This document shows positions 3,721-33,098 of a stretch of DNA of 34,509 nt, piece by piece. The DNA is taken from NCBI GenBank assembly GCA_013152945.1, contig JAADFL010000021.1, forward strand, positions 1-34,509. Direction: 5' to 3'. Source of the DNA: Deltaproteobacteria bacterium (GTDB lineage: Bacteria; Myxococcota_A; JAADFL01). Position 1 is the first letter of the stretch. The number at the start of each line of letters is the position of its first letter. Below the pieces are notes generated by a model. The model searched no databases and was not told the DNA's origin. It saw only the letters and a list, made by a program, of their open reading frames with translations. The translations under genes and the position numbers were made by a program.

Positions 3721-3814
3721 TTCATGATCCTTTTATTGGCCCGGCTCTACGAATCAATGATCCCAGAATCGTTGTAAATAAAAAGCAATACCGGAGAAGC
3801 TGGCGGTAACGGCT

Positions 3815-3988: not shown

Positions 3989-4057
3989 GTCTTCATCTCC
4001 TTTCCGGGTTGCAGACCCGGCATCGGGGCATTCCTCTGAACCTCCCCTTTTTGTTCT

Positions 4058-4723: not shown

Positions 4724-4732
4724 AGGCGCAAG

Positions 4733-5245: not shown

Positions 5246-5254
5246 TTTCCCACC

Positions 5255-5641: not shown

Positions 5642-5740
5642 TTCATTCCTCCATTTGTTCCAAGCCCCCAAAACAAGGGGGCCCATTGTTGATACATGTG
5701 CCGGTACAGTCCGGATACGCAGACCGACTCGGCAACGACC

Positions 5741-6313: not shown

Positions 6314-6345
6314 CTCTTTCTCCTTTCCGGTCTCCCTGTCGAGAC

Positions 6346-10847: not shown

Positions 10848-10916
10848 TGATTTACTCCACCATTGCACTTCTTCACCGCATGGCAGCGGCCATGTTCGGC
10901 AGTCCCGAATCTAGGA

Positions 10917-11575: not shown

Positions 11576-11691
11576 CAGAATCCCGATTCCCCCGCAAACC
11601 GGACTCTCCGGGTTCTCCCGATGTCACCGATCCAAAACAGTGCATTTGAATTTTATTAGCACTGAACGATATGGGATATACAAGGAGGTTT

Positions 11692-15514: not shown

Positions 15515-16056
15515 AGCTCATACTTGTTGGAGTCAGGGGTTCGGGCAAAACCACTGTAGGCTCCATGGCGGCCGAGGAGATTGGAGCCGGATTTATCGAC
15601 ATGGATACCGAGATCGAAGCGGTTGCAGGCAACAAGATAAGTGATATCTTCGCAGGCACCGGCGGGGAGAGCAAGTTCAGGAGCCTCGAGTCCCTTGTGC
15701 TTTTAAGAATTGCCGACATGAATCCACCTGAAAAGGATTTGATTATATCCACGGGCGGCGGCATTGTGATCGAGAGAAGAAACAGGAAGATTCTCCGCAG
15801 GATGGGGCACGTTGTCTGGCTGCAGGTCAGCGCGGATCAGGCCGTCTCCAGAACAGCAGGCTCGGACAGGCCCTCCCTGACCGGGCTTTATCCTCTCGAT
15901 GAAGCAAAAAAAATGATTTCCAGTAGATGGAACCTGTACGAATCAATTGCCGACAGCGTGGTTGTTACAGACGCAAGGACGATACAAGACGTATGCAACG
16001 AAATCGTTACAATCTGGCACGAACTCAATCCAGCCGAATTCAAATCAGGCAGATGA
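15511..16056 (+). CDS. aroK: Shikimate kinase
   Basis: A 181-aa P-loop kinase that phosphorylates shikimate with ATP. Walker A GVRGSGKT (7-14), the shikimate-binding D30-x-D32 (FIDMDTEIE), R57 (ESKFRSLE), STGGGIV (80-86) and the lid RPSLTG are all present. It starts at GTG within the end of aroA and is the last gene of the aro operon. Its end overlaps the end of hpnE, which comes from the opposite strand, by about 12 bases. Chorismate synthase (aroC) is not in the window. Confidence 0.93.
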   Translation: MKLILVGVRGSGKTTVGSMAAEEIGAGFIDMDTEIEAVAGNKISDIFAGTGGESKFRSLESLVLLRIADMNPPEKDLIISTGGGIVIERRNRKILRRMGHVVWLQVSADQAVSRTAGSDRPSLTGLYPLDEAKKMISSRWNLYESIADSVVVTDARTIQDVCNEIVTIWHELNPAEFKSGR

Positions 16057-17400: not shown

Positions 17401-18255
17401 TTAAACCACTGCCACGAGAGCGGCTATGAGACGTCTCTTCACCGCTATTTTCGCCTTTGTCAACGCAGGAGGCCGTGCCTGTCCGACTTTTGGAGAAAGG
17501 GCGGACCGTTCCTCTACCCTGTCCAGCAGGGAGGAATAGATCTCCCGCAATATTTCACCGAAATAAAAGGCCCGCCTTTTTGACGGCTCCAGCGAAGCCT
17601 TTGCCATCCTGTAGTATTCCCGCGCTCGCGCAATTTCGAACATCATCAGTCGATACACGGCGCCGGCATTTCGACCAAGTACGAGGTCTTGTTCGCTGAC
17701 CCCGTTGTCATGAAGATCCTCGAGAGGAAGGTATATCCGGCCCCGTGCGGCGTCTTCTGAAACATCCCTCAGGATATTCGTGAGCTGCATTGCAATTCCA
17801 AGGTTCTCCGCGTACATGTCCACGTCTCTTCCGGTGAAACCAAGCAGCCTGGTGCAAACCAAACCGACAACCCCGGCGACCCTGTAACAATAAGCATACA
17901 GATCGGTAAAGGATTCGTACCTGTCTTTGTCCAGGTCCCAGGAAACTCCCTCGATTATTGCCAAGAGCCACTCCTTGGGTACGCCGCTCTTTGCAAGTGC
18001 CGGCGCCAGGGCCTTCATCACGGTCTCCCGGGCACCCCTGCCGTAACTCCTGTTCACTTCATCGGTCCAGTATCGAAGGCGCCCGGACTTCTCGGCCCAA
18101 GTGCCTGCACAATCGGCTGCATCGTCCACGGCCCTGCAAAAGGCATAGAAAGAGACCAGGCTGTTCCTCTGCTCTCCCGGGAGTGACAAAATCGCGGCGG
18201 CCATGTTGCTGTGAGCCTTTTTCAATGCTTCGATGCAGTAATTTACAGGATCCAT
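17401..18255 (-). CDS. hpnD: Presqualene diphosphate synthase
   Basis: A 284-aa all-helical trans-prenyltransferase. The first aspartate motif is FCRAVDDAAD (39-48), then AYCYRVAGVVG, and the second is NILRDVSEDAARGRIYLP (160-177). HpnD condenses two FPP into presqualene diphosphate. It is told apart from hpnC by its sequence type and by its place next to hpnE. GAGGTGG precedes the ATG. Nine bases separate it from hpnC upstream. Confidence 0.92.
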   Translation of the reverse strand: MDPVNYCIEALKKAHSNMAAAILSLPGEQRNSLVSFYAFCRAVDDAADCAGTWAEKSGRLRYWTDEVNRSYGRGARETVMKALAPALAKSGVPKEWLLAIIEGVSWDLDKDRYESFTDLYAYCYRVAGVVGLVCTRLLGFTGRDVDMYAENLGIAMQLTNILRDVSEDAARGRIYLPLEDLHDNGVSEQDLVLGRNAGAVYRLMMFEIARAREYYRMAKASLEPSKRRAFYFGEILREIYSSLLDRVEERSALSPKVGQARPPALTKAKIAVKRRLIAALVAVV

Positions 18256-18264
18256 TTCACCACC

Positions 18265-19197
18265 TCAAGAAGCCAAATCGGCAATAGAAAGAAGCAATAC
18301 CTTCAGCCTTGCGGCCTGGGACAGTTTGGGCCTCTTTCTGAATATCCCGGCCTTGAGGTTGCAAACCGATTGGAGCACTGAAAATCCGCCTCGCCAGACC
18401 ATGGATAAATAGAGACTGGCCGGAAAAGACACCAACCTTGGAAGGACCCGCGAATTTTCATACAGGGGAAACACGCGTGATGTAAGCTCAATCAACAGGT
18501 TTTCCAATTGGTAACTTTGCCTGCCGATCAATAAGTCATCCGGGGAAAGGGAAAACGCATCCATGTCTTTTCCGGGCACGTAAACCCTTCCACGCGGCAA
18601 GTCCACCGACAGGTCCTGCCAGAAATTGGTGAGTTGGAGCGCAGTGCACAGTTCGTCCGATGCCTTTATCAACCTCTTGTCGGAGTCCAGACCCAGTACC
18701 CGCAACACGAGTCTTCCAACAGGGTTGGCGGACCTGCTGCAATAATCCAAAACCTGGGGATACGTATCATACCTGAACCCGGCTGCATCCTGCCTAAAAG
18801 CTGAAATCAGATCCTGAAACGGTTCGATCTCCAGTTGGAATTGTTGCCTGGCCCTTGCCAAGGCAATAAAGACCGGGTGGGTCGACCTGCCGTCGAAGCA
18901 ATCCTCGAGTTGCCGTTGCCAGTCATCCAGGTAATCAAGGCCCTTTTCCTTGAAGGCGGGCTCATCGGCAAAATCATCGGCTGTCCTGGCAAAGGCATAG
19001 ATTGCGCTCAAGGCCTCCACAACATGGCGATCGAACAGTGTAAAGGCGACCGGGAAATTCTCGTAGTGCCCCATGGCGGTTTGAACAACATACCGCACCG
19101 ATTGTTCATTGGTCCATTCGCCTGCAACCGGAATCCCTGTAACAGGGCTCCATGGAGCGTGTGACGTTACGGCCCTAGACTGCCTTGCGCGCAGCAT
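18265..19197 (-). CDS. hpnC: Hydroxysqualene synthase
   Basis: A 310-aa homologue of HpnD. Recognisable segments are HYENFPVAFTLF, IYAFARTADDFADEP (first aspartate motif, about 66-80), ANPVGRLVLRVLG, and LTNFWQDLSVDLPRGRVYVP (second motif). HpnC turns presqualene diphosphate into hydroxysqualene. The N-terminus is about 30 residues longer than the core fold. ATG 19197 is preferred, with AAAGG 7 bases upstream; TTG 19203 is possible. The start overlaps the HMG-CoA reductase end by 23 bases, placing squalene synthesis and mevalonate genes in one transcript. Confidence 0.92.
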   Translation of the reverse strand: MLRARQSRAVTSHAPWSPVTGIPVAGEWTNEQSVRYVVQTAMGHYENFPVAFTLFDRHVVEALSAIYAFARTADDFADEPAFKEKGLDYLDDWQRQLEDCFDGRSTHPVFIALARARQQFQLEIEPFQDLISAFRQDAAGFRYDTYPQVLDYCSRSANPVGRLVLRVLGLDSDKRLIKASDELCTALQLTNFWQDLSVDLPRGRVYVPGKDMDAFSLSPDDLLIGRQSYQLENLLIELTSRVFPLYENSRVLPRLVSFPASLYLSMVWRGGFSVLQSVCNLKAGIFRKRPKLSQAARLKVLLLSIADLAS

Positions 19198-20392
19198 GCT
19201 CAAGCCTTTCTTTTTCCATCCGTCTCTGGTGGAGCTTCATGTGCCCCTTCTGAATTCCTTCCGTGGACAGGGCACGCAAGGCCGCCAGGTTACTTGCCAG
19301 GCCTGCCGAAGCAGTTATCCGGCTTAATTGCATTGCAGTTGGATTGCCAAGAAGCTTTATAGCGAATGCAGCCGCAGGATGCACCCTGGTTGTTCCACCC
19401 ACAGTGCCCATTACAAGCGGCATTTCCATTTTTCCGACAAGCTGTCCGTCTTCTCCCACATGCCAGGTCGCAAGCGGCCTGTAACCCTTGCCCTTGCCTG
19501 CATAGGCGTGGGCCCCGGCCTCTACTGCACGCCAGTCGTTGCCCGTGGCCAAAACCACGGCGTCTATACCGTTCAGAATGCCCTTGTTATGTGTAGCCGC
19601 CCTGTAGGGATCCGACTCGGCGAACCTGCTGGCGCCGACTATTCCATCCCTTACCCTCTCACCGGCGTAATCTCCGAACGACAGGGTATGGGGTGATATC
19701 TCAACCCATACACGCACCATCCTATGGTCTGCAAGGTTGGAGAGAATCTTCAACCCGGGATAGCCGCCGCATGCCTCGGCCATTACCGGAGCCAACCGCT
19801 CGGCCATCGTGTTCACCATGTTGGCGCCCATGGCGTCACGACAGTCGACGAACAAGTGCACAACCAGTCTCCCGTCACCCTTGCCCACGTCAGGCCTGAA
19901 CTCCATGTCCCTGGCTCCGCCGCCCAGGGAGACCAATTGCGGCTGGGTTTCATTGGCTATGGCTATCCACTTGTCCTTGCTCTTTTCCAGTTCCCCGGCA
20001 GCGCCAAATGGATCATCCAGACCAAGGATCTCGATTTGGCTTATGGTCACCGGGTCGTCCGCTTCTGTGTGAAACCCCCCGTTTTCCCTTACCAGCACAG
20101 CGGCCTTCGATGCCGCCGCTACAACCGAAGGCTCTTCGATCACCATTGGTATCAAGTAATCCCTGCCATCCACCAAAAAATTGGTCGCCACTGCAAAAGG
20201 CAAGGCCATTGTTCCCACTACGTTCTCTATCAGTCTGTCTGCATGGAATACATTCAGGCCGCCCTGTGCCAAGGCCCATTCGATCGAGGTCCTGTCCATT
20301 CCGGCAAAGCCTGCCACAATCCTGGCCCTCTCCTCAATCGACCTCTTGAAAAATCCGGAAATCCTGGAACTCTGTTTTTCTGCCTCATTCAT
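19175..20392 (-). CDS. mvaA: Hydroxymethylglutaryl-CoA reductase, class II-like
   Basis: A 405-aa enzyme that reduces HMG-CoA to mevalonate, the committed step of the pathway. Class II features: ENVVGTMALPFAVATNF, EEPSVVAAASKAA (catalytic glutamate 86 or 87), DCRDAMGANMVNTMAE, HNKGILNGIDAV (K270), TGNDWRAVEAGAHAYA (D286), MGTVGGTTRVHP and the C-terminal catalytic H384 in IQKGHMK. These match Pseudomonas mevalonii E83, K267, D283 and H381 in order. It has no membrane domain, as expected. Although class II enzymes can be degradative, the surrounding kinases show a biosynthetic role. AAAGGAG lies 7 bases before the ATG. Confidence 0.95.
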   Translation of the reverse strand: MNEAEKQSSRISGFFKRSIEERARIVAGFAGMDRTSIEWALAQGGLNVFHADRLIENVVGTMALPFAVATNFLVDGRDYLIPMVIEEPSVVAAASKAAVLVRENGGFHTEADDPVTISQIEILGLDDPFGAAGELEKSKDKWIAIANETQPQLVSLGGGARDMEFRPDVGKGDGRLVVHLFVDCRDAMGANMVNTMAERLAPVMAEACGGYPGLKILSNLADHRMVRVWVEISPHTLSFGDYAGERVRDGIVGASRFAESDPYRAATHNKGILNGIDAVVLATGNDWRAVEAGAHAYAGKGKGYRPLATWHVGEDGQLVGKMEMPLVMGTVGGTTRVHPAAAFAIKLLGNPTAMQLSRITASAGLASNLAALRALSTEGIQKGHMKLHQRRMEKERLEHAARKAV

Positions 20393-20409: not shown

Positions 20410-21462
20410 CTAATAATGCTCCTCGGCATTTCGATTACCATCCCGGTCCCAAACACGACCGGCCCGATTAACGTTCTTTCTCGTACCTGCTTCGACCCCG
20501 GCGCGGCTCGGCTCCAGATCCAGGACAAGCATGCCTGCCTTCCTTGCTTCCTCCTCAAATGCGTCCCTGTGGTCCGTATCCGTAAACAATGCCACGCCAA
20601 GGTCGCCAGCACCGGCACCCGATGGTTTGTACACACCGCCATGCATTGCCACGAGATCCAGCAGCTTCGGCGTCGTGCATTCCATCAGGGGCATTCCGCT
20701 TTTTATCCCCAGGCTCATGTACGCATCGGCACAATCCCGGTACGCGTCCAGCACTACTTTCTCATCGCCTTCACAAACAGCCGAAGCCAACCTGCGGGCG
20801 CTATTGGAAATGCAGTCCAGCGCCCCTGCAACTTCACCCCGCGGCATTGATTCGACCCACAACCAAAAACGCCTCAACATGTACGGAGTATTAGACGGCC
20901 TGCCGGTCCACACCACGCTCATCGGCGGCAACCCATCCATCGGCAAGCGTGTCACCGCAGGTTCTCCCCCTTCAGGCCTTTTGTACGAGAACAACCCGCC
21001 ATAGACAGAGGCAGCCACATCCGCCCCGCTGCCCCTTTCCCCCTGGACGATTGACTGTGCCTTGAAAGCACATTCGAATATCCGCTTCCTCGATTTTTTC
21101 GAGCCACAAGATATACCGGCCCATTGGAAGACCGCACCGCACACCCCTGCCGTTGTCGCAGCACTGCTTCCAAGCCCGAGCTTTTGTCCGTGTATGTACA
21201 TTGCAGAAGTATCCACTTCAATGGGGCCAGGGACCGGATCGATTCCACACTGCTCGACTGCCAGGCCGGCGGCAACCCGGGAAAGCCTGGAACCCATCTT
21301 GCGTCCTCCAACACCGGTAATGTCCCTGCCCAGGGTGACGCACGCATTCCTGTTCACTGCGACAACCACTGCATCTCCCCCGAGCACCACCGCGTATTCA
21401 CCGGCGAGCATGAGTTTGCCCGGAGCGGTTACAGTCAGATATTCACCATGGATGCGGTTCAT
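20410..21462 (-). CDS. Phosphomevalonate kinase (GHMP family)
   Basis: A 350-aa GHMP kinase: TAPGKLMLAGEYAVVLGG (substrate and N-terminal motif), KLGLGSSAATTAG (P-loop), ERGSGADVAASVYGG, and the C-terminal GAGAGDLGVALF. It lies between the decarboxylase and HMG-CoA reductase in a mevalonate operon where the other two GHMP enzymes are accounted for, so phosphomevalonate kinase is the remaining step; this is partly by elimination. ATG 21462 (or GTG 21465) follows GGAG by 6-9 bases and lies 13 bases past the decarboxylase stop; upstream in-frame ATGs inside that gene lack a site. Confidence 0.87.
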   Translation of the reverse strand: MNRIHGEYLTVTAPGKLMLAGEYAVVLGGDAVVVAVNRNACVTLGRDITGVGGRKMGSRLSRVAAGLAVEQCGIDPVPGPIEVDTSAMYIHGQKLGLGSSAATTAGVCGAVFQWAGISCGSKKSRKRIFECAFKAQSIVQGERGSGADVAASVYGGLFSYKRPEGGEPAVTRLPMDGLPPMSVVWTGRPSNTPYMLRRFWLWVESMPRGEVAGALDCISNSARRLASAVCEGDEKVVLDAYRDCADAYMSLGIKSGMPLMECTTPKLLDLVAMHGGVYKPSGAGAGDLGVALFTDTDHRDAFEEEARKAGMLVLDLEPSRAGVEAGTRKNVNRAGRVWDRDGNRNAEEHY

Positions 21463-21475
21463 CACGGGTGTCTCC

Positions 21476-22516
21476 TCATTCATGCTCGACATCAACACTG
21501 GCGCCGGGACCGGGCCCGGCGGTTATAACGTGCCGGACTCCGTCCACCTCTTTTAAGATTTTTTCAAAAGCCCGGGCGTGCGCCGCCTCGCAAACCACCA
21601 TTGGGTTGGGTCCTGCATCCAAGGTGAAGTACCCCGGCAATCCCCGGGACCTGGCCCTGCGTACTGCATGAAAAGCCTGCATGGTCGGCCCGAGCCAGTA
21701 AACTATGCCGGGATCGGCAGCCATGGCGCAGGCATGCATACGCAGGCAGCTCCGTTCCACAACCGGCCCGAGACGATTGATATCCCTTTCCAGGATTGCA
21801 GATCTCGCCTCTTCTACATCATTAAAAGAGCTTTCGAGGAACGGCTTGTAAAATGGCGATGTCCCGGCAGTGGCTGCCATGCCTCTTCTTGAAGATATGT
21901 ACTTTTCCCCCCGGTCCACCACGCCTACCAGTATCTTGAGATCCCAGTGCATCGGATCAGCCACGATTCGCACCCGAAAGTCCAGGCCGGCCCGGTTATC
22001 TCCGGGAATGATTTCCGCAAAGCCCCCAACTATGCTTCTCGATGCCGATCCGGAGCCCATTCTTGCAAGACCTGCCATCTCCTGTTGGTTCAGGTCCATG
22101 CCGGCGGCACAGGTCGCAGCAAGCGCCAAGGCGGCAAACCCGGATGCGGACGAGGCCATGCCCGCTTTTGTCGGGAAATCATTATTCGTATCCACCCTGG
22201 CCCGGCCCGTAATGCCGGCCCTGGAACGTACCAGGTCCAGGAAGGATTCCACCCTCGATGCGAACCCCGGCTCGGCAGGCTTTCCATTGAAATAGATTAC
22301 ATCTTCTTTTCCGCCTGATTGGAAATCCACCGCAGTAGTCGTCTTAAGGCGATCCAAGGTCATGGAGATACTTGGACCTGCAGGCAGGTTCAGTTCAGCA
22401 TCCCTCTTGCCCCAATATTTCACCAGGGCTATATTGCTGCATGCTTTTGCAACAGCTTTCAACTCCTCCCCCTCTCCATACCCATGTTTACCGGCCCCGT
22501 GTCTATTGTCCGGCAA
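21476..22516 (-). CDS. mvaD: Diphosphomevalonate decarboxylase
   Basis: A 346-aa GHMP-family enzyme forming isopentenyl diphosphate from mevalonate diphosphate with ATP. Signatures: SNIALVKYWGKRD (near 27-39), SISMTLD, MASSASGFAALA (P-loop), MGSGSASRSIVGGF, and TLDAGPNP with the catalytic aspartate. The TTG start at 22516 has GGGAG 5 bases upstream and lies inside the end of the mevalonate kinase gene (58-base overlap); the catalytic domain starts near residue 20, so a later start cannot be excluded. Confidence 0.93.
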   Translation of the reverse strand: MPDNRHGAGKHGYGEGEELKAVAKACSNIALVKYWGKRDAELNLPAGPSISMTLDRLKTTTAVDFQSGGKEDVIYFNGKPAEPGFASRVESFLDLVRSRAGITGRARVDTNNDFPTKAGMASSASGFAALALAATCAAGMDLNQQEMAGLARMGSGSASRSIVGGFAEIIPGDNRAGLDFRVRIVADPMHWDLKILVGVVDRGEKYISSRRGMAATAGTSPFYKPFLESSFNDVEEARSAILERDINRLGPVVERSCLRMHACAMAADPGIVYWLGPTMQAFHAVRRARSRGLPGYFTLDAGPNPMVVCEAAHARAFEKILKEVDGVRHVITAGPGPGASVDVEHE

Positions 22517-23520
22517 CCCGCTCCCAAATCATTCCAATATTTGAGGACCCTGGCCTGTACAACAGTATCTCCGCCGGGTACCAGGGCGACTACACATCCA
22601 CCCCGTCCTGCGCCTGTCAGCTTGGCGCCCAAGGCGCCTGCTCTCATTGCCCGGTCCACCATCAAATCCATCATTGGGTGCGAGACTCCAATCTCCCTTA
22701 GCAGTCCATGGTTCTTTTTCATCGCCTTTCCCAGGCCTGCCGGATCCGCTGCAACAGATGCACGGGCGCCTTCCAGGGCGATATGATCCATTTCTTCCAA
22801 GATGGATTTGAACCATGCAGGCTTCATACTCTGCATACGCCTGACGTCTTCCACGACCTTCTTCGTGTTCCTTGGGATTCCTGTATTCCCAATCACCAGC
22901 CGTAAATCCACGGGTGCGGTGTACGCGCCGGACAAACCCGCTCCAAGGCTGTCAAAGCCTGCGGGAGGGGAAACATGTCCCTTGCCAAGGAAAAGACAGG
23001 CGCCTCCAAAAACACTGGTTGTGTTGTCTATTCCAGAGGGAATGCCATGGAATATCCGTTCCGCCTCCTTGGCAAGATCGTTCAGTTCGACCTTCGGGAG
23101 TTCCTTGCCGAGAACCGAGGACAAGGCCTTGAGCAGTCCGACACACAATGCAGCGGAGCTGCCCAAACCCGCACGACACGGCAGCCAGGTTTCGACGAGC
23201 AGTCTGTACCCGCATTGCACGGGAAACTTGTCGCGGACAAAGCGTAACAGTTCACCCACAATATCGTTGTCTTCATCGGACGAATAAAGATCCCACCCCG
23301 GCACAGATAATTCGAGGCGGATCGAATCCGAGGGCACCGCTTTTACACGCAATGCATCGGGAAGACCTACGGCCAGTGCAGTCATTCCATACACGACCGA
23401 ATGTTCTCCCAGTAATATCAACTTGCCATTGGCATCTGCCCTTGCATGCACCAAGGCCTGTTTCGATGGTTGCCCGCAACTGCCGCTGGTTTTCTCGGTT
23501 ACCAACCGAGTAACTGCCAT
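22459..23520 (-). CDS. mvk: Mevalonate kinase
   Basis: A 353-aa GHMP kinase for the ATP-dependent phosphorylation of mevalonate. Motifs in order: ANGKLILLGEHSVVYG (near 30-45), CRAGLGSSAALCVGLL (P-loop), FHGIPSGIDNTTSVFGG with the catalytic aspartate, and AKLTGAGRGGCVVALV at the C-terminus. The start is uncertain: ATG 23520 gives about 30 residues before the conserved core and leaves a 26-base gap after the isomerase stop; the frame stays open to GTG 23589, overlapping that gene. Confidence 0.92.
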   Translation of the reverse strand: MAVTRLVTEKTSGSCGQPSKQALVHARADANGKLILLGEHSVVYGMTALAVGLPDALRVKAVPSDSIRLELSVPGWDLYSSDEDNDIVGELLRFVRDKFPVQCGYRLLVETWLPCRAGLGSSAALCVGLLKALSSVLGKELPKVELNDLAKEAERIFHGIPSGIDNTTSVFGGACLFLGKGHVSPPAGFDSLGAGLSGAYTAPVDLRLVIGNTGIPRNTKKVVEDVRRMQSMKPAWFKSILEEMDHIALEGARASVAADPAGLGKAMKKNHGLLREIGVSHPMMDLMVDRAMRAGALGAKLTGAGRGGCVVALVPGGDTVVQARVLKYWNDLGAGCRTIDTGPVNMGMERGRS

Positions 23521-23546
23521 ATTTTCCAGGTCCGGGCCGGCCAATT

Positions 23547-24632
23547 TCAGCGTCCTTCTTTTTTCAAGGCCTGGCGTGTCCATGCCCACAGGACCGGCCC
23601 GATAACCCTTGGAGAATCGACAAGCTCCTTGAACGACTTACAGCCTGTCAAAAAGACCGCGAGCCTCAACTCCTCGATGAATTTCCGTAAAAATCCAGCA
23701 CAACCTTTTCGTCCGCCTGAAAGGTACGCCTCCATTACAGGCCCGGCAACGCCGCACAGCTTGGCTCCGAGGGCCAGGCACTTTGCCGCATCCAGGCCTG
23801 TGCGAAGCCCCCCGGAACCGATTAGGTCCAGCCCGGTACCGTCCAGCATCATCAGGCAGGCGGCAGTCGGTATTCCCCAGTCCCAAAAAGTTTCTCCCAG
23901 GCCCCCGGCTTCGCCCGAAGCCCTTCCTCTTAAAGCCTCGACGCCTACCCACGACGTCCCTCCTGCACCTGCCACATCCACAATTCGTACACCTGCATCT
24001 GCAACGGATCGTGCTGTAACCGGATCTATCCCGGAACCAACCTCCTTGATAATCACCGGTACATCGAGTTCCTCCACCAACCTCGAGAGGGATTCCAAGG
24101 ATCTCTTGAAATTCGAATCACCCTCGACTTGAACCGCCTCCATGGCAGGATTGAGGTGTACAAAGAGTGCATCTGCTCCGACAATATCGACTGCATTCAC
24201 AATCTTTTTTGTCTCGGCCTGGATAACCTGGGCGATCCCGATGTTCCCGCCGATAAAAACATCGGGGGCAATATGCCTCAACATGTAATCCTTTGCCCTG
24301 GCCGGGTTTTCCAGCATAGCCCTCTGGCTTCCGAGGCCGATACCCAGGCCCAGTTCGGCCGCAACTTCGGCCAGTTCCATGTTTACCTTTCCGGCCGTGC
24401 TTGTTCCCCCTGTCATGGAACTTATTAGGACCGGTGCGTTCATGCTCCTGCCGAGAAACTCGGTACGCAGATCCACCTCGTCCAGGCTGGTACCCGGCAA
24501 GGCTCTTGGAACAAGATCGACCTCCTCCAACAATGTCGTCTTGTTCCTGAACCTCGGCCCCCCGGATTCAAAGAGTTCGATATGCTCATCCTTTCTTTTT
24601 TCAGTCGCCCTGTGTGCCCCTAGTAATTCCAC
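23547..24632 (-). CDS. fni: Type 2 isopentenyl-diphosphate delta-isomerase
   Basis: A 361-aa FMN enzyme interconverting IPP and DMAPP, the first gene of the mevalonate/squalene operon. Motifs: TEKRKDEHIEL (10-20), LISSMTGGT (69-77), GLGSQRAML (99-107), NIGIAQV, FVHLNPAMEAVQVEGD (158-172), IIKEVGSGI and the glycine-rich FMN phosphate site DLIGSGGLRTG. In the active-site segment the usual HLN-x-x-Q-E reads HLNPAME: M164 stands where most members have the glutamine implicated in proton transfer; E165, which binds magnesium, is kept. GTG 24632 is chosen, with GGGAGG 8-9 bases upstream, since the conserved N-terminus begins there. Confidence 0.92.
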   Translation of the reverse strand: MELLGAHRATEKRKDEHIELFESGGPRFRNKTTLLEEVDLVPRALPGTSLDEVDLRTEFLGRSMNAPVLISSMTGGTSTAGKVNMELAEVAAELGLGIGLGSQRAMLENPARAKDYMLRHIAPDVFIGGNIGIAQVIQAETKKIVNAVDIVGADALFVHLNPAMEAVQVEGDSNFKRSLESLSRLVEELDVPVIIKEVGSGIDPVTARSVADAGVRIVDVAGAGGTSWVGVEALRGRASGEAGGLGETFWDWGIPTAACLMMLDGTGLDLIGSGGLRTGLDAAKCLALGAKLCGVAGPVMEAYLSGGRKGCAGFLRKFIEELRLAVFLTGCKSFKELVDSPRVIGPVLWAWTRQALKKEGR

Positions 24633-24942
24633 GGTCCGCACCTCCCGCCCCAAAGCCCTGGTTGAACCAATAAACATGTGCCTGTTCAAATAAGTGTTGC
24701 CAATAATGTGCCAGAAAAATAACACCATGTAATAAAAGCGATTTTCAGTTAATCTTAGGGAGAATGACTTTTCTTTCGTGCGGTTCTGCACAAAACCCGT
24801 GCACAAACGAACGACATAATTTAATTAAAGCACTTGCCGTCGGCAACCGTTCCAACCAAAACGGGATCTACGGCACGATGATTGCTTGGGATTTCGAACA
24901 TGTCCCAACGCTTACCGGGCCGATGGGTAAAAGGAGGTAGAC
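24633..24942. other. Divergent control region between the isomerase operon and FPP synthase
   Basis: A 310-bp AT-rich gap between divergent starts (minus-strand isomerase operon, plus-strand prenyltransferase). It must hold promoters for both. I see a short inverted repeat TGCAC/GTGCA at 24787-24803 and the AT-rich run ATAATTTAATTAAAG near 24816, but no promoter I can call with confidence. Translations across it look non-coding. Confidence 0.4.
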
Positions 24943-25872
24943 ATGGCCATGACAACAACAACGGCTGAAAGAAGCACCGGCAGCAACTCTTTCGACTTGC
25001 ACTCTTACCTGAAATACAACAAGGATAAAGTTGACAACGCCTTGAAGGAAGTCATGAAAACATATGACTGTCCTTCTCCATTGCAAGAGGCCATGCTTTA
25101 CAGCCTGGCGGCGGGCGGCAAGCGGTTGCGGCCCATCCTGGTCATAGCCGCGTCGAATCTGAACGGAAGTCCTGCCTGCGATCCCATGCCGGCCGCCTGC
25201 GCCCTTGAATTCGTCCATACCTATTCGCTGATACACGATGACCTGCCGGCTATGGACGACGATGATTTTCGGAGGGGGAAACCCACGAATCACAAGGTGT
25301 TCGGCGAGGCCCTGGCCATACTGGCAGGTGATGCACTACTCACCGAGGCATTCACCATCATATCCAAGGCCTATGGCTCTGAATTTCCCGCTATTGCAGC
25401 CGGGGTCACGGCCGAGCTAGCATCGAGCGCCGGCGCAGAGGGAATGGTGGGAGGCCAGGTGCTGGATACCATTGCAACAGGTAACACTCCCGACATCGTT
25501 GAAATGGAACGCCTGCACAGGATGAAGACCGGGGCCCTGATAAAGAGCGCACTTTTGATAGGAGGCATAGTCGGCGGTGTCGGCCCTGAAAAACTGGATG
25601 CATTGGAAAGGTATGGACTGGAATTGGGCCTGGCCTTCCAAATAACGGACGATCTCCTCGACGTAACAGGCGACCTCGTGTCACTGGGAAAGACCCCCGG
25701 CAGCGACGAGAGGATGAACAAGCCGACCTATCCCAAGCTCCTTGGAATCGAAGCCGCGCGCAGCCTGGCCGCCGAGGTGCGGGACAGGGCTATAGATTCC
25801 TTGAAGAGCTTTGGAAATAATGCAGAGCCATTGTGCGCTATCGCACATTACGTGGTGGAACGTTCGTTTTAG
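24943..25872 (+). CDS. ispA: Farnesyl diphosphate synthase (type II polyprenyl synthetase)
   Basis: A 309-aa trans-prenyltransferase. The first aspartate-rich motif is HDDLPAMDDDDFRRGKPTNH (from 98), with the two-residue insertion of bacterial FPP synthases and Y94 five residues before it as in E. coli IspA; the second is FQITDDLLDVTGD. AAGGKRLRP (57-64) binds IPP. The product is expected to be FPP, the substrate for HpnD encoded across the divergent region; a longer product cannot be ruled out from sequence. AAAGGAGG precedes the ATG. The gene stands alone and converges on the U32 gene with 20 bases between. Confidence 0.9.
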   Translation: MAMTTTTAERSTGSNSFDLHSYLKYNKDKVDNALKEVMKTYDCPSPLQEAMLYSLAAGGKRLRPILVIAASNLNGSPACDPMPAACALEFVHTYSLIHDDLPAMDDDDFRRGKPTNHKVFGEALAILAGDALLTEAFTIISKAYGSEFPAIAAGVTAELASSAGAEGMVGGQVLDTIATGNTPDIVEMERLHRMKTGALIKSALLIGGIVGGVGPEKLDALERYGLELGLAFQITDDLLDVTGDLVSLGKTPGSDERMNKPTYPKLLGIEAARSLAAEVRDRAIDSLKSFGNNAEPLCAIAHYVVERSF

Positions 25873-25892: not shown

Positions 25893-27236
25893 TCAGGCCG
25901 GATGCTGACTGCTTCTCTTTTTAGCTACATACTTAACCATCTCCACGTAAGGCTTCACAAATCCTGAAGTCCGTCCGGGCTCGGGCTCTACCAATGTGCC
26001 CATGTACGAGTTCCAGAAAGATCCGTCATGCAACTCATCGAGTACGTTCGCAAAAAGGCCCAGTGCACGGTCGCGGTACGATGGATCGATTTGCACCACC
26101 TTGTCGGCCCACCTTTGGCAATACCCGCATCGTTCACAGTCCATGGCCTGGCAACCTTGTTTCAAAAACCTGTCTATGAAACCGTCAAGGGCCTTGTTGT
26201 CTATGTACACGCCGGGCTCGCCCGTCCTCGGGAACAAGAGCCCGATTGTACGCCCCAGGTCCACCACCTTTGCGAATTTCAACAAGTTGATAGCCTTGGG
26301 TTTCATGAAGTACTTGAGCAGCCTTCGAAGGCTGAAGAGGTCCTTCTCCCTCTTTGAGAACTTGTTTTCATCGTATGAAAAGAACTGAACCAGGTCCAGG
26401 AGGTTTCCATCGTAACTGCGATTTACATACGCATTGACACGTTCGAGGAGTATCTTCGTAGGTGTGTTTCTCTCGACGATCTTGAAATTTTCGTACCCGA
26501 TTGCCTCATAGTGATGCAGGTCCTCGGGTCTTATCCAGTTGGCCCTTAAGTAGTTGATAGGCTCTGAAAGCTTATAGTTGAGGCAAAACAAGATACTGTA
26601 GTCCAATGGAATGGATCTGCGGTCCCTGTCCTCGTCATCCTGGGATGCGTGTGAGAGCGAACATGCATGGTTGGCTGCTATGGCGCAATCTTGTCTGCAC
26701 GAGTTATTGACTATCAGTTGGAGATCACATTTAACCGACTCCCTGATAGCGCGAAGGGCCTCGAATTCGCGGTAGATGTTTACCTCGCTCACCACGATGC
26801 AATCCGCGCCGTTGTCCTCCCAGAACCTGGCCTTTCTCGCATTGTCCGTATACCTGTGTGAACTGACCCTGACCTTGAAATGAGGGTAGCGCCGCTTTAT
26901 TGTCTTCAGGAAATAAAGCGTTCCGACAGTGATCGAGTCCACACCTATTTCAGAAAGCCAGTCGAGCATCTTTCTCAGTTTTTGCTGCCCCTGCTTGGAG
27001 AACTCCAGGTTTGCCATACACGATGCATTGAGCAGGTAGTTGAATTCGATATTCCTTGCATGGTAATCCTTTACAGCTTGTTCGACTCCCTTTCGATCCA
27101 CCTTGGGCAGGTAAAAAGAGGGCCTGCCGCCTCCGAAAGGATCCGCCGTCAATTTGCCGTATACCTCGTACACCGGGAAACCTTCGAGCCTTTTTGGCAG
27201 GCTCGGATCGAAGTTACAGGCCACACTCAAACGCAT
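25893..27236 (-). CDS. U32-family Fe-S protein, candidate O2-independent hydroxylase
   Basis: A 447-aa member of the U32 (COG0826) family by overall pattern: an N-terminal barrel-like segment, then the four-cysteine set C180, C184, C192 (NNSCRQDCAIAANHACSLSH) and C218 (LFCLNY), typical of the 4Fe-4S site in UbiU/UbiV, TrhP and RlhA. Unusually it has a second cluster-like set near the C-terminus, C362-x4-C367-x2-C370-x2-C373. Family members once called peptidases are now known in several cases to hydroxylate quinone precursors or RNA without O2, with prephenate needed in the RNA cases. Here the gene overlaps the chorismate mutase/DAHP synthase gene by 10 bases. The substrate is unknown; a terpenoid is a hypothesis from context. 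Confidence 0.8.
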   Translation of the reverse strand: MRLSVACNFDPSLPKRLEGFPVYEVYGKLTADPFGGGRPSFYLPKVDRKGVEQAVKDYHARNIEFNYLLNASCMANLEFSKQGQQKLRKMLDWLSEIGVDSITVGTLYFLKTIKRRYPHFKVRVSSHRYTDNARKARFWEDNGADCIVVSEVNIYREFEALRAIRESVKCDLQLIVNNSCRQDCAIAANHACSLSHASQDDEDRDRRSIPLDYSILFCLNYKLSEPINYLRANWIRPEDLHHYEAIGYENFKIVERNTPTKILLERVNAYVNRSYDGNLLDLVQFFSYDENKFSKREKDLFSLRRLLKYFMKPKAINLLKFAKVVDLGRTIGLLFPRTGEPGVYIDNKALDGFIDRFLKQGCQAMDCERCGYCQRWADKVVQIDPSYRDRALGLFANVLDELHDGSFWNSYMGTLVEPEPGRTSGFVKPYVEMVKYVAKKRSSQHPA

Positions 27237-28333
27237 TTCACATCCTCCATTCTTTTAACCGGTGCCGGCGCGGCCCCTGGTATGATCCTTCTTACCGACT
27301 CGGCCAGTGCAGCGAACTCGTTAACCGTCAGTTGTTGCTCCGCATCCGATTTGGCCACAAGCGGATCATGGTGGACCTCGATCATCACCCCGTCCGCGCC
27401 GGCTGCAAAGGCTGCTGCGGCGAGCGGCTCCAGCAGATCTTTTCTTCCAACAGCGTGGCTGACATCGACGATGACAGGCAAGTACGTATTCTTCTTGAGC
27501 AGCGGCACTGCGCTTATGTCCAGGGTGTTTCTCGTGGATTTCACGAACGTCCTGATACCGCGTTCGCACAAAATGATATCATTGTTTCCGGCAGCCATTA
27601 TGTACTCGGCGGCATTTAGAAATTCATCCAGGGTAGCCATGAAACCCCGCTTCAGGAGAACCGGCTTGCCTATTCGTCCGACTTCTTTGAGAAGTTCGAA
27701 GTTTGACATGTTCCTGGTTCCAATCTGGAGGATACCGGCATGAGCTGCAACCAGTTCCGCACTTCTCGTATCCAGGACCTCTGTTACCGAGACCATGCCG
27801 TGCCTGGTCGCCACCTCCTCCAGTATGCGCAAGCCCTCTTCGCCCATGCCCTGAAACGAGTACGGAGAGGTGCGCGGTTTATATGCTCCGCCCCGCAATA
27901 ATCGAACTCCCTGCCTTGACAGGCCGGCAGCCACTGCATCCAACTCGTCCAAGCCTTCCACGGAGCACGGTCCGGCAATATACTGTGGATAGCGGCCGAG
28001 CGTAACGCCTGATACATCAATTACCTTGTCCTTGGCTCCGGGGCTCCTGTATACTCTCAATGACTCTATTGTCTTGCGGGACATGAGGCCCAGGCTTGCC
28101 TTGAAGACCTCCTTGAACAGGCTGCGGATAACCTCGTCCGGGAACGGGCCCTGGTTGGCCTTGATCAGGCGCTCCAACATCTCGTGTTCACGCCTGGGGT
28201 CGAAAAGGTCTTCTCCCTTCTTCTCCTTCAAATTCCGCATATGCGAAACCAGCGCACCCCGCTCTGAAAGCAAATCCAGGAGTTTTTCGTTGTTTTCGTC
28301 GATTAATCTTCGAAGCTCTGTTACACCATTCAA
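27227..28333 (-). CDS. Fused chorismate mutase / DAHP synthase
   Basis: A 368-aa bifunctional enzyme. Residues 1-90 are an AroQ-type helical chorismate mutase (ELRRLIDENNEKLLDLLSERGALV, DPRREHEMLERL), making prephenate. Residues 100-355 are a type I-beta DAHP synthase: YIAGPCSVE, LLRGGAYKPRTSPYSFQG, LLKRGF, CERGIRTF, VDVSHAVGRKDL and DGVMIEVHHDP. It thus catalyses the first shikimate step and a step after chorismate. Such fusions usually permit feedback control by prephenate or chorismate. TTG 28333 is the start, with AAAGGAGG 8 bases upstream. It is placed away from the aro operon, coupled to the U32 gene. Confidence 0.94.
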   Translation of the reverse strand: MNGVTELRRLIDENNEKLLDLLSERGALVSHMRNLKEKKGEDLFDPRREHEMLERLIKANQGPFPDEVIRSLFKEVFKASLGLMSRKTIESLRVYRSPGAKDKVIDVSGVTLGRYPQYIAGPCSVEGLDELDAVAAGLSRQGVRLLRGGAYKPRTSPYSFQGMGEEGLRILEEVATRHGMVSVTEVLDTRSAELVAAHAGILQIGTRNMSNFELLKEVGRIGKPVLLKRGFMATLDEFLNAAEYIMAAGNNDIILCERGIRTFVKSTRNTLDISAVPLLKKNTYLPVIVDVSHAVGRKDLLEPLAAAAFAAGADGVMIEVHHDPLVAKSDAEQQLTVNEFAALAESVRRIIPGAAPAPVKRMEDVKCV

Positions 28334-28408: not shown

Positions 28409-29815
28409 TCAGAAGGCAACCGTCATGCCTCCACCAAAGGCGAGCATGTGAGCTGAAAAAGTCGCGGCCCGGATTCTCGAAGCAACAACAGCCTTTTCCG
28501 ACTTCTCATACCTTCCGGCCTCCATCCACGAGTATTGCAAAAAGAGATCCAAAGAATAGCGCCAACCGTTTTCATCACCCGGTCCTGTTACAAGGGTCGC
28601 TCCCATGGTAAACATGTGCCTGTCGGAATCCAGCAGGTTGGTAATACGGGCATTACGCCCCTGATCGGGCGCGGGAGTTGGAGAAAACCGATATCCCGTG
28701 CGAATTCGAACACTGTCCGAAGGCTTCCATTCGATTCCCAGGGCTGGGGAAAAAGTTGATTTAAATTCCGGTGCTTGGCTTGCCTTCACATCATTGATGG
28801 TAACATTCGCCCCCGGAGTCTCGCGCAGTATGGTCCACTTGCCTGCTGGATTCCGGTAATCATCCCACCTAAACCACGTCAAATCAGCGGCCGCAACCAA
28901 TCCCTTGCCAAAATCATACGAGATACCGGCAGACAACTGATCGGGCTGGACCAGGAGAGAACGATCGAATATCATTTTTATATTCTCCTCGAAATAACCT
29001 TTGGTCGAAATCAATTGGACAAGGTGCATTTTATCCACGATCTTGCCCCGGAAGGAAAATCCCAGCTTGAACCCCGGCACGATATCTATTGTCATACCTG
29101 CTGTTGGTGTGACAAAGGTATAGGATGACACGTCGACCGCCTCCTCCGGCAGGGAGGCATCCTTGTCGCCCAGCAGAAACGAAGTGTCAACGCCTATGTC
29201 GACGCCGACGTCAAAAGCAAAGGAAACAATCAACCCGGCCCCTAAAGAGAGCCACGGGACCGGAGATACTGCGCCTCCAAGGTACAACAAGGTCCTTTCC
29301 GGCGGTTCAAACATGAAAAACATGGGCGTATCTTCATATGGAATGCGTTGATGTATTACTGTGTGTGTGGGAATCTCCGCAAACATCCCTATGCTCATCC
29401 TGGTTTTCAAGTACTCGTTTTCTATCAGAGAATCGAGTGGCAACAGCAAACCGATACCTAAAACGCCCATCACGTGTTCGGTCTTTGAAAGGCCTTCTTT
29501 AGGCAATGACAGGGTTCCACCATATGCATCGCTTGTTTCCAGGTCCTGCCTGGTCGACAACTTCTGATATCCAAATTGAACCGATAGCTCGGGGGAATCC
29601 ACCCAGACCAGGTTGGCCGGGTTGTAGTACAAGTCTCCCGGCCCGCCGGGAATCGCGGTTCGAGCACCGGCCATTCCACGGGAAGCTGAATCGAACCCGA
29701 ATACATGCGATGCCTGGGCCCATACCGGATAAGAAAGAAACTGTAATAATAAGCCGATAGAGAAAGGCAGCATGCAGGAATGTAAATAACAGGCTTTCCC
29801 TTTTTTGCTATTCAT
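28409..29815 (-). CDS. FadL/OmpP1-family outer-membrane transporter
   Basis: A 468-aa beta-barrel protein. A signal peptide (basic MNSKKGK, hydrophobic run, cleavage likely after VWAQA near residue 35) is followed by FGFDSASRGMAGARTAIPGGPGDLYYNPANLVWVD, the N-terminal pattern of FadL/TodX proteins, then many alternating amphipathic strands, ending with F as outer-membrane proteins do. FadL channels move hydrophobic molecules such as long-chain fatty acids or toluene across the outer membrane. It heads the run with the DAHP synthase fusion (75 bases downstream) and stands divergent to the triterpene cyclase, so passage of a hydrophobic terpenoid is a reasonable guess. Confidence 0.85.
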   Translation of the reverse strand: MNSKKGKACYLHSCMLPFSIGLLLQFLSYPVWAQASHVFGFDSASRGMAGARTAIPGGPGDLYYNPANLVWVDSPELSVQFGYQKLSTRQDLETSDAYGGTLSLPKEGLSKTEHVMGVLGIGLLLPLDSLIENEYLKTRMSIGMFAEIPTHTVIHQRIPYEDTPMFFMFEPPERTLLYLGGAVSPVPWLSLGAGLIVSFAFDVGVDIGVDTSFLLGDKDASLPEEAVDVSSYTFVTPTAGMTIDIVPGFKLGFSFRGKIVDKMHLVQLISTKGYFEENIKMIFDRSLLVQPDQLSAGISYDFGKGLVAAADLTWFRWDDYRNPAGKWTILRETPGANVTINDVKASQAPEFKSTFSPALGIEWKPSDSVRIRTGYRFSPTPAPDQGRNARITNLLDSDRHMFTMGATLVTGPGDENGWRYSLDLFLQYSWMEAGRYEKSEKAVVASRIRAATFSAHMLAFGGGMTVAF

Positions 29816-29924: not shown

Positions 29925-30031
29925 TTTTTATCCGCTCCGACCCGGACCGCCGGCTGCACACCATGAGCTTGGCAAGTTGTTTGCACGAGACATGAAAAAC
30001 AAGATTGCAAATACCGGGCGGAGGTATCTCA

Positions 30032-32002
30032 ATGACTCAAATTGTCCACGATAACATTGAAAAGGCGCTGGCAAACCTGGCCTCTATCCAAGAGGAAAAC
30101 GGCGCATGGAACGGTGATTACAGCGGGTCGTTGTTCTTGACTCCTTTCTTCGTTTGCGCCTGTTATGTCGCAGACATCCGGCTCCGGGAGGATACAGTAC
30201 GAGGCTTCTTGCATTACCTGGACAGCAATCAGGAGCCTGACGGCGGATTCGGACTGCATGTTGAGGCCCCGAGCTGCATGTTTACCACTGTCCTCTCTTA
30301 CATTTCCTTTCGTATACTTGGCCGCGGTCCGGATCATCCGGCAGCACTCCGGGCAAGAGAATGGATACTCTCTCACGGCGGGGCCGAAGCCATTCCTCTG
30401 TGGGGGAAATACATACTCGCGGTCATGAACCTTTATGACTACCAAGGAGTAACTCCCTTGCCGCCGGAGTTGTGGCTGCAACCGAAAAGCTCTCCCTTGC
30501 ATCCGGGCAGATTCTGGTGCCATGCACGAATGGTATTACTGCCGATGTGTCATCTCTACGGAGCAAGGCATCACATGGTCGAGACCGATCTCACGAGAGA
30601 ACTTAAAACAGAAATTTTCTCCACGACATGGGATGAAATCGACTGGAGGCACTGCCGGAGCTTGGTTGCGGACACGGATTCTTATGTTCCAAGAAACCCG
30701 GTGCTGAAGTTGCTGGACCTCTTCCTGGTTGCATTCGAGCAAATCACGCCCGGTAAACTGCGACATAAAGCCCTTAAAGACACATTGGACAGAATAACTT
30801 ACGAGGACCGAACCACCAATTACATCGATATTGGTCCTGTCAACAAGTTGTTTCACACCATGGTGGCCTTTTTCGAGTACGGCCCTGATTCAGAGGCTTT
30901 CAAGTCACATATCTCACACCTGTATGACTACCTGTGGCAAGTCGACGGATTCGTCAAGGTAAACGGGTACAATTCCACCGAGCTTTGGGATACCGTATTT
31001 GCGTTGCAATCCGTGTTCGCAGCAGGAGCGGACAGGATGAAACCAGGTATAATAGAAAAAGCTTGCAAGTTCGTTGCCGAGGCCCAGGTCAAGGAAGACC
31101 TGCACCAGGGCGAGCGCTACTACAGGCACAAGAGCAAGGGCGGATGGCCGTTTTCGAACAATCCACACGGATGGCCCATCACGGATTGTACTGCCGAAGG
31201 CATCAAGACGTGCCTAATAACTGAAAAATTTCTTGGTCAATTACCTGTCTTGGAGAATTCCTTAAAGGATGCGGCGGACCTGATCCTGTCCATGCAAAAC
31301 AGGGACGGAGGTTGGGCATCCTATGAACTTACGAGGGGAACCAGGCTCTTGGAAATGCTCAACTCATCCGATGTCTTCATGAACATCATGATAGATTACA
31401 GTTATGTTGAATGCACATCATCATGCATTCAGGGACTGGCCATGTTCAATTCCAGGTTTCGAGATCACAGGAACAGCGACATCAAACTAGCCATTGAAAG
31501 AGGAAAAAACTTTCTCCTTCGGTCACAACAGGATGACGGCAGTTTCGTGGGTTCCTGGGGAATCTGTTATACATACGGCACTTGGTTCGGTGTAAAGGGC
31601 CTGCTGGCGGCAGGAGTGCCGCCGGATCATTCTTCGATCAAAAATGCGTGCAGGTTTCTCCTTGGCAAACAAATGCCTGACAATGGATGGGGAGAAAGCT
31701 GGCTTTCCTGCAAAGAAGGCAGGTACGTTCCCACTGAAAAAGGCCAGGTGGTCATGACATCCTGGGCGTTGATGACCTTGCTCGAGGCCGGAGGTAAGGA
31801 AAAGGAAGCCATTGACAAAGGGGTGGAATTCCTGTGCAGGCGGCAACTCGATGATGGAAGCTGGCCTGTGGAGCACATAGCCGGAATATTCAATAAGACC
31901 TGTGCAATAAACTATGACAATTACAGAAACTATTTTCCACTTTGGGCCTTGGCATTGTACGAGCAAAAGTTTCAAAAAAGAGGCGGACACATTGGGCACT
32001 GA
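30032..32002 (+). CDS. Oxidosqualene-cyclase-type triterpene cyclase (DCTAE motif)
   Basis: A 656-aa cyclase with repeated QW motifs (QEPDGGFG, QNRDGGWASYE, QQDDGSFVGSWG, NGWGESW, RQLDDGSWP). It belongs with sterol-type cyclases: the acid motif is D385-C386-T-A-E, not the DxDDTA of squalene-hopene cyclases. C386 and C461 (YVECTSS) match the cysteines beside the acid in human lanosterol synthase (D455, C456, C533), and H164 (FWCHAR) matches H232. Y313, H379 and I383 match the trio Y410, H477 and I481 that marks cycloartenol synthases. The expected substrate is 2,3-oxidosqualene, yet no squalene epoxidase gene is in view. ATG 30032 has GGAGG 7 bases upstream. The next gene overlaps by 11 bases. 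Confidence 0.93.
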   Translation: MTQIVHDNIEKALANLASIQEENGAWNGDYSGSLFLTPFFVCACYVADIRLREDTVRGFLHYLDSNQEPDGGFGLHVEAPSCMFTTVLSYISFRILGRGPDHPAALRAREWILSHGGAEAIPLWGKYILAVMNLYDYQGVTPLPPELWLQPKSSPLHPGRFWCHARMVLLPMCHLYGARHHMVETDLTRELKTEIFSTTWDEIDWRHCRSLVADTDSYVPRNPVLKLLDLFLVAFEQITPGKLRHKALKDTLDRITYEDRTTNYIDIGPVNKLFHTMVAFFEYGPDSEAFKSHISHLYDYLWQVDGFVKVNGYNSTELWDTVFALQSVFAAGADRMKPGIIEKACKFVAEAQVKEDLHQGERYYRHKSKGGWPFSNNPHGWPITDCTAEGIKTCLITEKFLGQLPVLENSLKDAADLILSMQNRDGGWASYELTRGTRLLEMLNSSDVFMNIMIDYSYVECTSSCIQGLAMFNSRFRDHRNSDIKLAIERGKNFLLRSQQDDGSFVGSWGICYTYGTWFGVKGLLAAGVPPDHSSIKNACRFLLGKQMPDNGWGESWLSCKEGRYVPTEKGQVVMTSWALMTLLEAGGKEKEAIDKGVEFLCRRQLDDGSWPVEHIAGIFNKTCAINYDNYRNYFPLWALALYEQKFQKRGGHIGH

Positions 32003-33098
32003 TTTCAAGGTGGTTGTCATCGGTGCCGGACCTGCCGGATCAGGTGCGGCCATCCGTTTACTACAAAGGGGAGTCGGACCCGTGCTCCTCTTGGACAGGC
32101 GCAAGTTTCCACGGGTCAAGCCATGCGCGGGAGGCATTTCAACAAGGGCGTCCAAGGCGCTGAAGGATCTCGGCGTATACAGTAACATTGAGGAACAAGC
32201 TTACGAAGTCACCGGTGCCGTAATTGTAAGTCCTTCGGGAAGATCCATGCATCTTGCAGGCGATAAAGGCGCGCTGGTCCTTGAAAGATCGCGCTTGGAT
32301 ACCCTGCTCAAGGATGCTGCTGTTTCAGAAGGAGCCGAGTTTGCGGACAAAACAATGATAGAATCCCTCCAACCAGAAAGACATGGAAGACTGGTGGTGC
32401 GGCCGGCCGGGGCCGAGCCGATATCCTGTTCATGGGTGGTGATAGCCACAGGTGCATCGGCATCCCTGGCCAAAACGCCCTTGATGCCTGAAACACTCCT
32501 GACCATGACAGGATGGTACAAGGGTATTGACTTTCTGCCCGGAACCATCGAGATGTTCTTCGACCAAGAACTTCATCCTCATTATGGATGGCTTTTTCCG
32601 GAAGGTGCGGGCAGGGCCAACATCGGTATCTGCATGGATCGAAGGAGGCTTGGTAACAGGAATATCAAGGCCGTGTTTTCATCGTTCCTGGACCGGCACT
32701 TTGCAAAGAGGCTTGTAAAAGCAGAACCGGTAAGAAAGGCCATGGGATACCCGATAGCAGCCTCCAAGGTGACTTTGAAACCAAAGACCCCCCCGGGGGT
32801 GCTGGTTGTCGGAGAGGCTGCGCGACTTGCCAACTACTTCACGGGCGAGGGAATATACCACGCCCTGGCAAGCGGCATATATGCTGCCGACGCAATAGCA
32901 AATGTGCAAACAAAGGGTCTTCCCAAGGCCCGGGCGGCTGAACAATATTTCAGGAAAACAAAAATGTCGCTTGGCCCGGCTTTGTACGCATATGCATCCA
33001 TCTCAGGTTTCATTCATCCTGCCATGGAACTCCTTACAAGGCTTCATACCATGCCCGGCATGAAACCATTTATCAGGGCCGCCCTGGCCAAGCTCTGA
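31992..33098 (+). CDS. Geranylgeranyl-reductase-family flavoprotein
   Basis: A 368-aa FAD protein of the p-hydroxybenzoate hydroxylase fold. FAD motif VVVIGAGPAGSGAAIRL (7-23) with D35 at the strand end; K-P-C45-A-G-G, the cysteine motif of geranylgeranyl reductases; HYGWLFPEGAGRANIGI; and the second FAD motif VVGEAARLANYFTGEGIYHALASG. Members reduce isoprenoid double bonds; the wider fold also contains monooxygenases such as squalene epoxidase. It starts at TTG 31992 with AAAGAGG 8 bases upstream, inside the end of the cyclase gene, so the two are coupled and it probably acts on the cyclase substrate or product. Confidence 0.87.
   Translation: MGTDFKVVVIGAGPAGSGAAIRLLQRGVGPVLLLDRRKFPRVKPCAGGISTRASKALKDLGVYSNIEEQAYEVTGAVIVSPSGRSMHLAGDKGALVLERSRLDTLLKDAAVSEGAEFADKTMIESLQPERHGRLVVRPAGAEPISCSWVVIATGASASLAKTPLMPETLLTMTGWYKGIDFLPGTIEMFFDQELHPHYGWLFPEGAGRANIGICMDRRRLGNRNIKAVFSSFLDRHFAKRLVKAEPVRKAMGYPIAASKVTLKPKTPPGVLVVGEAARLANYFTGEGIYHALASGIYAADAIANVQTKGLPKARAAEQYFRKTKMSLGPALYAYASISGFIHPAMELLTRLHTMPGMKPFIRAALAKL

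Follow-up and report, generated by a model that had tools for sequence, protein, structure and literature searches.

In the window, i.e. the whole stretch of 34,509 nucleotides analysed here, a gene for a U32-family protein overlaps a gene for a chorismate mutase/DAHP synthase (CM/DAHPS) and shares a cluster with an oxidosqualene cyclase (OSC), which raises the question of how the substrate of such a cyclase is made in a genome with no match to squalene epoxidase. From its gene context, the U32 protein is quite probably a squalene epoxidase that depends on prephenate but not on O2 and supplies the OSC; some role of it in the OSC pathway is almost certain. The features concerned are as follows.

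11671..16056, + strand: operon of aroB, fused aroD-aroE, aroA and aroK, for chorismate precursor supply
16045..17379, - strand: HpnE, hydroxysqualene dehydroxylase, completing squalene (NCBIfam family)
17401..18255, - strand: HpnD, presqualene diphosphate synthase (best family, but under the NCBIfam cut-off)
18265..19203, - strand: HpnC, squalene synthesis (NCBIfam family)
19175..20392, - strand: HMG-CoA reductase
20410..21498, - strand: probable phosphomevalonate kinase (placed by its location and conserved gene order; no NCBIfam match at 1e-30)
21476..22516, - strand: diphosphomevalonate decarboxylase
22459..23589, - strand: mevalonate kinase
23547..24680, - strand: type 2 IPP isomerase, Fni (family match)
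24943..25872, + strand: farnesyl diphosphate synthase-type polyprenyl synthase (FPPS; family match)
25893..27236, - strand: U32-family protein of 447 residues, candidate O2-independent squalene epoxidase (PF01136 profile, tree, model)
27227..28333, - strand: fusion of an N-terminal AroQ chorismate mutase with a DAHP synthase, proposed dedicated prephenate supply (NF009239, active-site residues)
28409..29815, - strand: FadL/OMPP1-family outer-membrane protein (family match)
30005..32002, + strand: OSC with a DCTAE motif; start at 30005 (TTG) or 30026 (ATG)
31914..33098, + strand: geranylgeranyl-reductase (GGR)-family FAD protein; true start probably downstream of 31914

As judged from their families, the genes from HMG-CoA reductase through HpnCDE would jointly give squalene from HMG-CoA. 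The terpenoid setting that a sequence-only reading of this DNA had claimed for the U32 pair is thus confirmed, as a mevalonate-squalene-triterpenoid cluster. The GGR-family protein scores 172.3 against TIGR02032 (cut-off 158.8), and the FadL/OMPP1-family protein possibly functions in lipid transport. Elsewhere in the window, cytochrome bd genes, ferritin, desulfoferrodoxin and rubrerythrin form an O2-defence region typical of anaerobes (1340-6349), and a radical SAM protein gene overlaps the glycosyltransferase family 2 gene downstream of it (9178-10868).

The best PDB match of the cyclase is human lanosterol synthase (E 5e-175). In the numbering of the human enzyme, the window protein keeps D455, C456, Y503, C533, H232 and F696, which serve epoxide protonation and cation steering in OSCs, and has Y/H/I at positions 381/449/453, the cycloartenol-synthase combination. 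D455 is the catalytic Asp of the DCTAE motif, with C456 and C533 as its partners. With such a lanosterol/cycloartenol-synthase-type active site, the cyclase should need 2,3-oxidosqualene. Its score against TIGR01787 is 603 bits, above the cut-off of 322.7; TIGR03463 is the top-scoring cyclase family (711), yet below its own cut-off of 851. An identity as squalene-hopene cyclase is rejected, the hopene model giving 255 bits, below its cut-off, and the motif being DCTAE and not DXDD.

The source genome (4.84 Mb, 94% complete) gave no match to squalene epoxidase (PF08491) in a genome-wide profile search, and none to P450s in a genome-wide search. The PF08491 profile detects even weak epoxidases (about 1e-15) in aerobic relatives. 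COX1 shows a weak match only (198 bits), probably a nitric-oxide-reductase-like subunit. The genome carries cytochrome bd, however, and traces of O2 may therefore be available, a point against the epoxidase reading.

The U32 gene starts with ATG, preceded by GGAGG at 27248-27244. Its product scores 44.6 bits against PF01136 (curated cut-off 22.4) and is the only match to this profile (n=1) in a genome-wide search of the source genome. The AlphaFold model (pLDDT 85) shows a TIM-barrel fold; its closest structure is that of the U32-family protein in PDB entry 5D88 (Z 22.6 over 228 residues; runner-up Z 15.2). Seven cysteines are invariant among 29 U32 homologues and fall into two groups, C180-X3-C184-X33-C218 and C362-X4-C367-X2-C370-X2-C373, which probably hold two iron-sulfur clusters within the single protein. 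The motif CX6CX15CX3C of characterised U32 oxidases does not fit the window protein, and the conserved glutamate of the U32 motif in known U32 oxidases is replaced by glutamine; the differing cysteine spacing and the missing glutamate count against the epoxidase reading. In a family tree, which had been suggested earlier as a check on grouping with RNA-modifying enzymes, the OSC-linked U32 proteins form a clade of their own (support 0.98) with E. coli UbiU, UbiV, TrhP and RlhA outside, and no such grouping is seen. Membership of any of these four groups is ruled out by the tree together with the cysteine pattern.

The CM/DAHPS gene starts with TTG, with AAAGGAGG upstream, and good ribosome-binding sites precede both its start and that of the U32 gene. 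Its TGA stop codon (27229-27227) falls within the start of the U32 gene, which together with the coordinates verifies the previously claimed overlap of exactly 10 bases. The fusion protein scores 480.7 bits against NF009239 (cut-off 279), and the E. coli AroQ site (Arg11, Arg28, Lys39, Arg51, Glu52) corresponds to R8, R25, K36, R48 and E49. In an alignment, the mutase residues are kept in every homologue with a complete N-terminal CM domain (the called start of locus L036 is incomplete, and the C-terminal mutase of Bacteroidetes was not scored). Outside the window, 19 of 36 homologous loci have a CM/DAHPS gene on the same strand within 300 bp of U32, five of them with 4-base overlaps, and because of this recurrence the pairing is not a matter of chance.

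The CM/DAHPS might nevertheless do no more than supply the first step that the nearby aro operon lacks, its link with U32 then being without functional meaning. This operon had been described as full; it is not, because DAHP synthase, chorismate synthase (aroC) and chorismate mutase are all absent from 11671-16056, where only aroB, aroDE, aroA and aroK are found. The lack of a DAHP synthase in the operon would suit such a role, but the U32-CM link recurs in 19 of 36 other loci, where apart from an aroA in L050 no aro operon adjoins it. Moreover, in the fusion of locus L020 (8886-10004) the DAHPS active site is mostly replaced (Cys to Leu, KPR to GLE, loss of the Glu and Asp ligands) while the chorismate mutase residues are retained, and in the Bacteroidetes loci L031 and L037 the neighbour of U32 at the same place is built differently, as a reversed DAHPS-CM fusion with the mutase at the opposite end. 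The common factor is prephenate supply, and a role confined to the aro pathway is very unlikely. The L020 locus derives from the same genome as L007 and L123, and a sulfotransferase gene precedes its CM/DAHPS fusion.

The distribution of the U32 clade was analysed in a sample of 377 genomes from the same phylum as the source genome. OSC occurs in 61 of these genomes and squalene epoxidase in 52 of the 61. All 14 genomes with a clade U32 (14/377) are among the OSC genomes (hypergeometric p about 2e-12), and U32 is present in 7/9 OSC genomes without epoxidase versus 7/52 with it (Fisher p 2e-4), both p-values being optimistic because the genomes are not independent and relatedness was ignored. 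Two OSC genomes, G020 and G155, have neither U32 nor epoxidase and count against the epoxidase role; G020, which has many P450s, shows a partial OSC match only, and G155 is 82% complete, and missing data may therefore explain both exceptions. The epoxidase lies within 6 kb of OSC in 29 of the 52 epoxidase-bearing OSC genomes. The position of U32 beside OSC is thus occupied by squalene epoxidase in aerobic relatives.

This distribution also bears on whether the U32-CM pair is an RNA modifier similar to TrhP and RlhA whose OSC company is accidental. As the sole PF01136 match of the source genome, the window protein could represent the only U32 function there, and a need for prephenate is common to TrhP and RlhA. 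Such a role is extremely improbable, however, in view of the separate clade, the co-occurrence with OSC in 14/14 genomes, the lack of the protein in the majority of the phylum's genomes, where tRNA and rRNA exist as well, and the direct operon linkage of U32 and OSC in several phyla.

A scan of named genomes, with the locus proteins taken by direct tblastn extraction, yielded 43 loci, 36 of which, all outside the window, were counted as OSC-linked U32 family. Seven (L040-L042 and L045-L048) were excluded as sister groups. L049, a short fragment, is absent from the tree. Every named homologue record is a MAG, from Myxococcota, Deltaproteobacteria, Spirochaetes, Fibrobacteres, Bacteroidetes and others. 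OSC is found genome-wide for 35 of the 36 family loci (exception L044/G093), and in the genomes of the seven set-aside loci it is missing or hopene-cyclase-like only. U32 lies within 3 kb of OSC in 20 of the 36 loci, 14 of which have both genes on the same strand with a gap below 250 bp, several with 4-base overlaps. The linkage of U32 with the cyclase across genomes, proposed earlier as a check, is thus present both genome-wide (14/14) and locally (20/36 within 3 kb). Either OSC or chorismate mutase adjoins U32 in 32/36 loci, and around U32 no further conserved partner (ferredoxin, UbiT-like) was found beyond CM/DAHPS, OSC, FPPS, GGR and isoprenoid genes.

The sister subfamilies (L040-L042, L048 and L045-L047) are 39-52% identical; the genomes that carry them (Nitrospinota, Firmicutes and unclassified) have no true OSC. 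In L042 the neighbours include YceI and a B12-binding radical SAM protein, in L045 an aminotransferase and a GHMP-kinase/methyltransferase fusion. Divergent U32 paralogues are also observed. A second one, with 37% identity, lies on an OSC-cluster contig (L137 1501-2712, G279:C30:4235-5413; also L138) and could perform a further O2-independent oxidation of the steroid. The genomes G179 and G294 (L143, L144, L146-L148, L150) each contain three or four such paralogues, two of them adjoining on one contig in G179, and have no OSC match.

Of 44 genomes searched for squalene epoxidase, 11 have it. In the dual genomes, with both U32 and epoxidase, U32 is mostly located beside CM and distant from OSC. 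The OSC tree shows U32-only, dual and epoxidase-only genomes intermixed, and the catalytic residues are common to nearly all OSCs in the tree (exception L035, where position 456 is Thr), an indication of a single substrate provided by two unrelated enzymes. P450s are absent from 26 of the 27 U32-bearing genomes without epoxidase. The FA-hydroxylase superfamily was considered as a source of an alternative epoxidase and rejected, being absent from the source genome and from 17 of these 27 genomes.

A further possibility is that a flavin oxygenase, e.g. the GGR-family protein at 31914-33098 or an unrecognised enzyme, makes oxidosqualene with trace O2, the U32-CM pair having some other low-O2 role. 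The GGR-family protein adjoins OSC in the window, seven further loci have a GGR-family gene in the vicinity of U32, the presence of cytochrome bd points to some exposure to O2, and true COX1 (defined as at least 320 bits) is present in 10/27 U32-bearing genomes without epoxidase, versus 11/11 epoxidase-bearing genomes. Nonetheless, this explanation is very unlikely: most U32-OSC loci, e.g. those of Spirochaetes and fen Myxococcales, have no nearby GGR-family gene, PF08491 picks up weak epoxidases in aerobic relatives and none in the source genome, and a GGR-family protein of Myxococcota has been characterised as a C-24 sterol reductase (PMC12004948).

The U32-CM pair might also tailor the cyclised triterpenoid at another carbon, with oxidosqualene coming from an unrecognised enzyme or the cyclase taking squalene. 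Known U32 enzymes are hydroxylases, the GGR-type reductase beside the cyclase shows that tailoring genes are present in the cluster, and dual genomes retain U32 despite their squalene epoxidase. Still, tailoring is unlikely, since it leaves the enrichment of U32 in genomes without epoxidase unexplained, the cyclase has the oxidosqualene-type DCTAE motif and not the squalene-type DXDD, and other oxygenase families (PF08491, FA hydroxylase, P450) were not found in the source genome. The sequence-only reading had proposed an O2-independent U32-CM oxygenation module acting on the finished terpenoid. The module itself is supported by the separate clade, the OSC linkage and a conserved CM link that survives loss of the DAHPS site, but hydroxylation of the finished product is less likely than epoxidation of squalene before cyclisation, a role for which both the chemistry and the oxygen donor are predictions.

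In the epoxidase pathway, the mevalonate genes would lead via FPP and HpnCDE to squalene, all within the cluster. The partner chorismate mutase would make prephenate, which may be the oxygen donor, in line with what has been reported or suggested for UbiUV, TrhP and RlhA, and U32 would convert squalene to 2,3-oxidosqualene by oxidation of its terminal C=C. Judging from its residues, OSC would cyclise the latter to a cycloartenol/lanosterol-type 3-hydroxy steroid, whose side chain may then be saturated by the GGR-family protein, in analogy to the related Bsr. Relatives that are facultative or aerobic have this U32, usually with CM, side by side with ordinary squalene epoxidase, just as UbiUV and UbiIHF occur together. 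Overall, a two-cluster U32 protein and prephenate-derived oxygen may well form a complete O2-independent entry of sterol type, leading to 3-hydroxy steroids and sterane fossils in fully anoxic habitats.

Every known sterol pathway begins with an O2-using enzyme, and introduction of the first oxygen on squalene without O2 has been thought impossible for sterols. This O2 need of squalene epoxidation underlies the use of steranes as evidence for oxygen and the view of sterols as a post-oxygenation invention. The searched literature regards bacterial sterol synthesis as aerobic: a 2016 survey found no anaerobes among OSC-bearing bacteria, taken as strong evidence for aerobic synthesis, and left room for an alternative pathway turning up in an anaerobe (PMC4919349). 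Nothing relevant was found that links U32 or prephenate with squalene or oxidosqualene in this literature, bioRxiv and most subscription papers being outside its scope, and a recent report could exist. The U32 family is already known; the substrate class, the reaction and the pathway role would be new. This U32 protein is a specific candidate, present in many uncultured bacteria from several phyla. Should the assignment be true, steranes would become weaker as an oxygen proxy, U32 chemistry would extend to alkene epoxidation, and a dedicated model would be obtained for how U32 enzymes use prephenate.

The literature agrees with the earlier statement that oxygenations by U32 proteins proceed without O2, and prephenate is needed for them or reported to be used (PMC6599085, PMC10470549, PMC11574389). 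TrhP and RlhA need it for tRNA and rRNA hydroxylation (PMC6599085), and it is reported as the oxygen source for UbiU/UbiV (PMC11574389). The window protein resembles UbiU/UbiV in its family, its Fe-S cysteines and its (predicted) lipid-pathway substrate, and as an O2-independent counterpart of flavin monooxygenases that occurs alongside them in facultative species. Unlike UbiUV, a heterodimer which acts on an aromatic ring and needs UbiT, it is a single protein, possibly with two clusters where UbiUV has two subunits, and it belongs to a separate clade with seven invariant cysteines and an adjoining chorismate mutase, with no UbiT-like neighbour found. With TrhP and RlhA it shares the U32 domain and, putatively, the prephenate requirement known for those enzymes, but these act on RNA and differ in clade and cysteine pattern. 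For known U32 enzymes the hydroxylated group is an aromatic or pyrimidine ring, whereas the proposed substrate is an isolated trisubstituted alkene; epoxidation of this type is undocumented for U32 enzymes, which counts against the epoxidase role. Squalene epoxidase (Erg1/SQLE, PF08491) would give the same product, 2,3-oxidosqualene, and has the same place beside OSC in aerobic relatives, but is an unrelated O2- and FAD-dependent flavoprotein which is absent from the source genome. The sterol clusters of Myxococcota likewise combine OSC and a GGR-family reductase (Bsr, the bacterial sterol C-24 reductase, of the same family as the window protein) with isoprenoid genes (PMC12004948). Aerobic sterol producers, however, use squalene epoxidase and P450s, whereas the source genome, without both, has the U32-CM pair.
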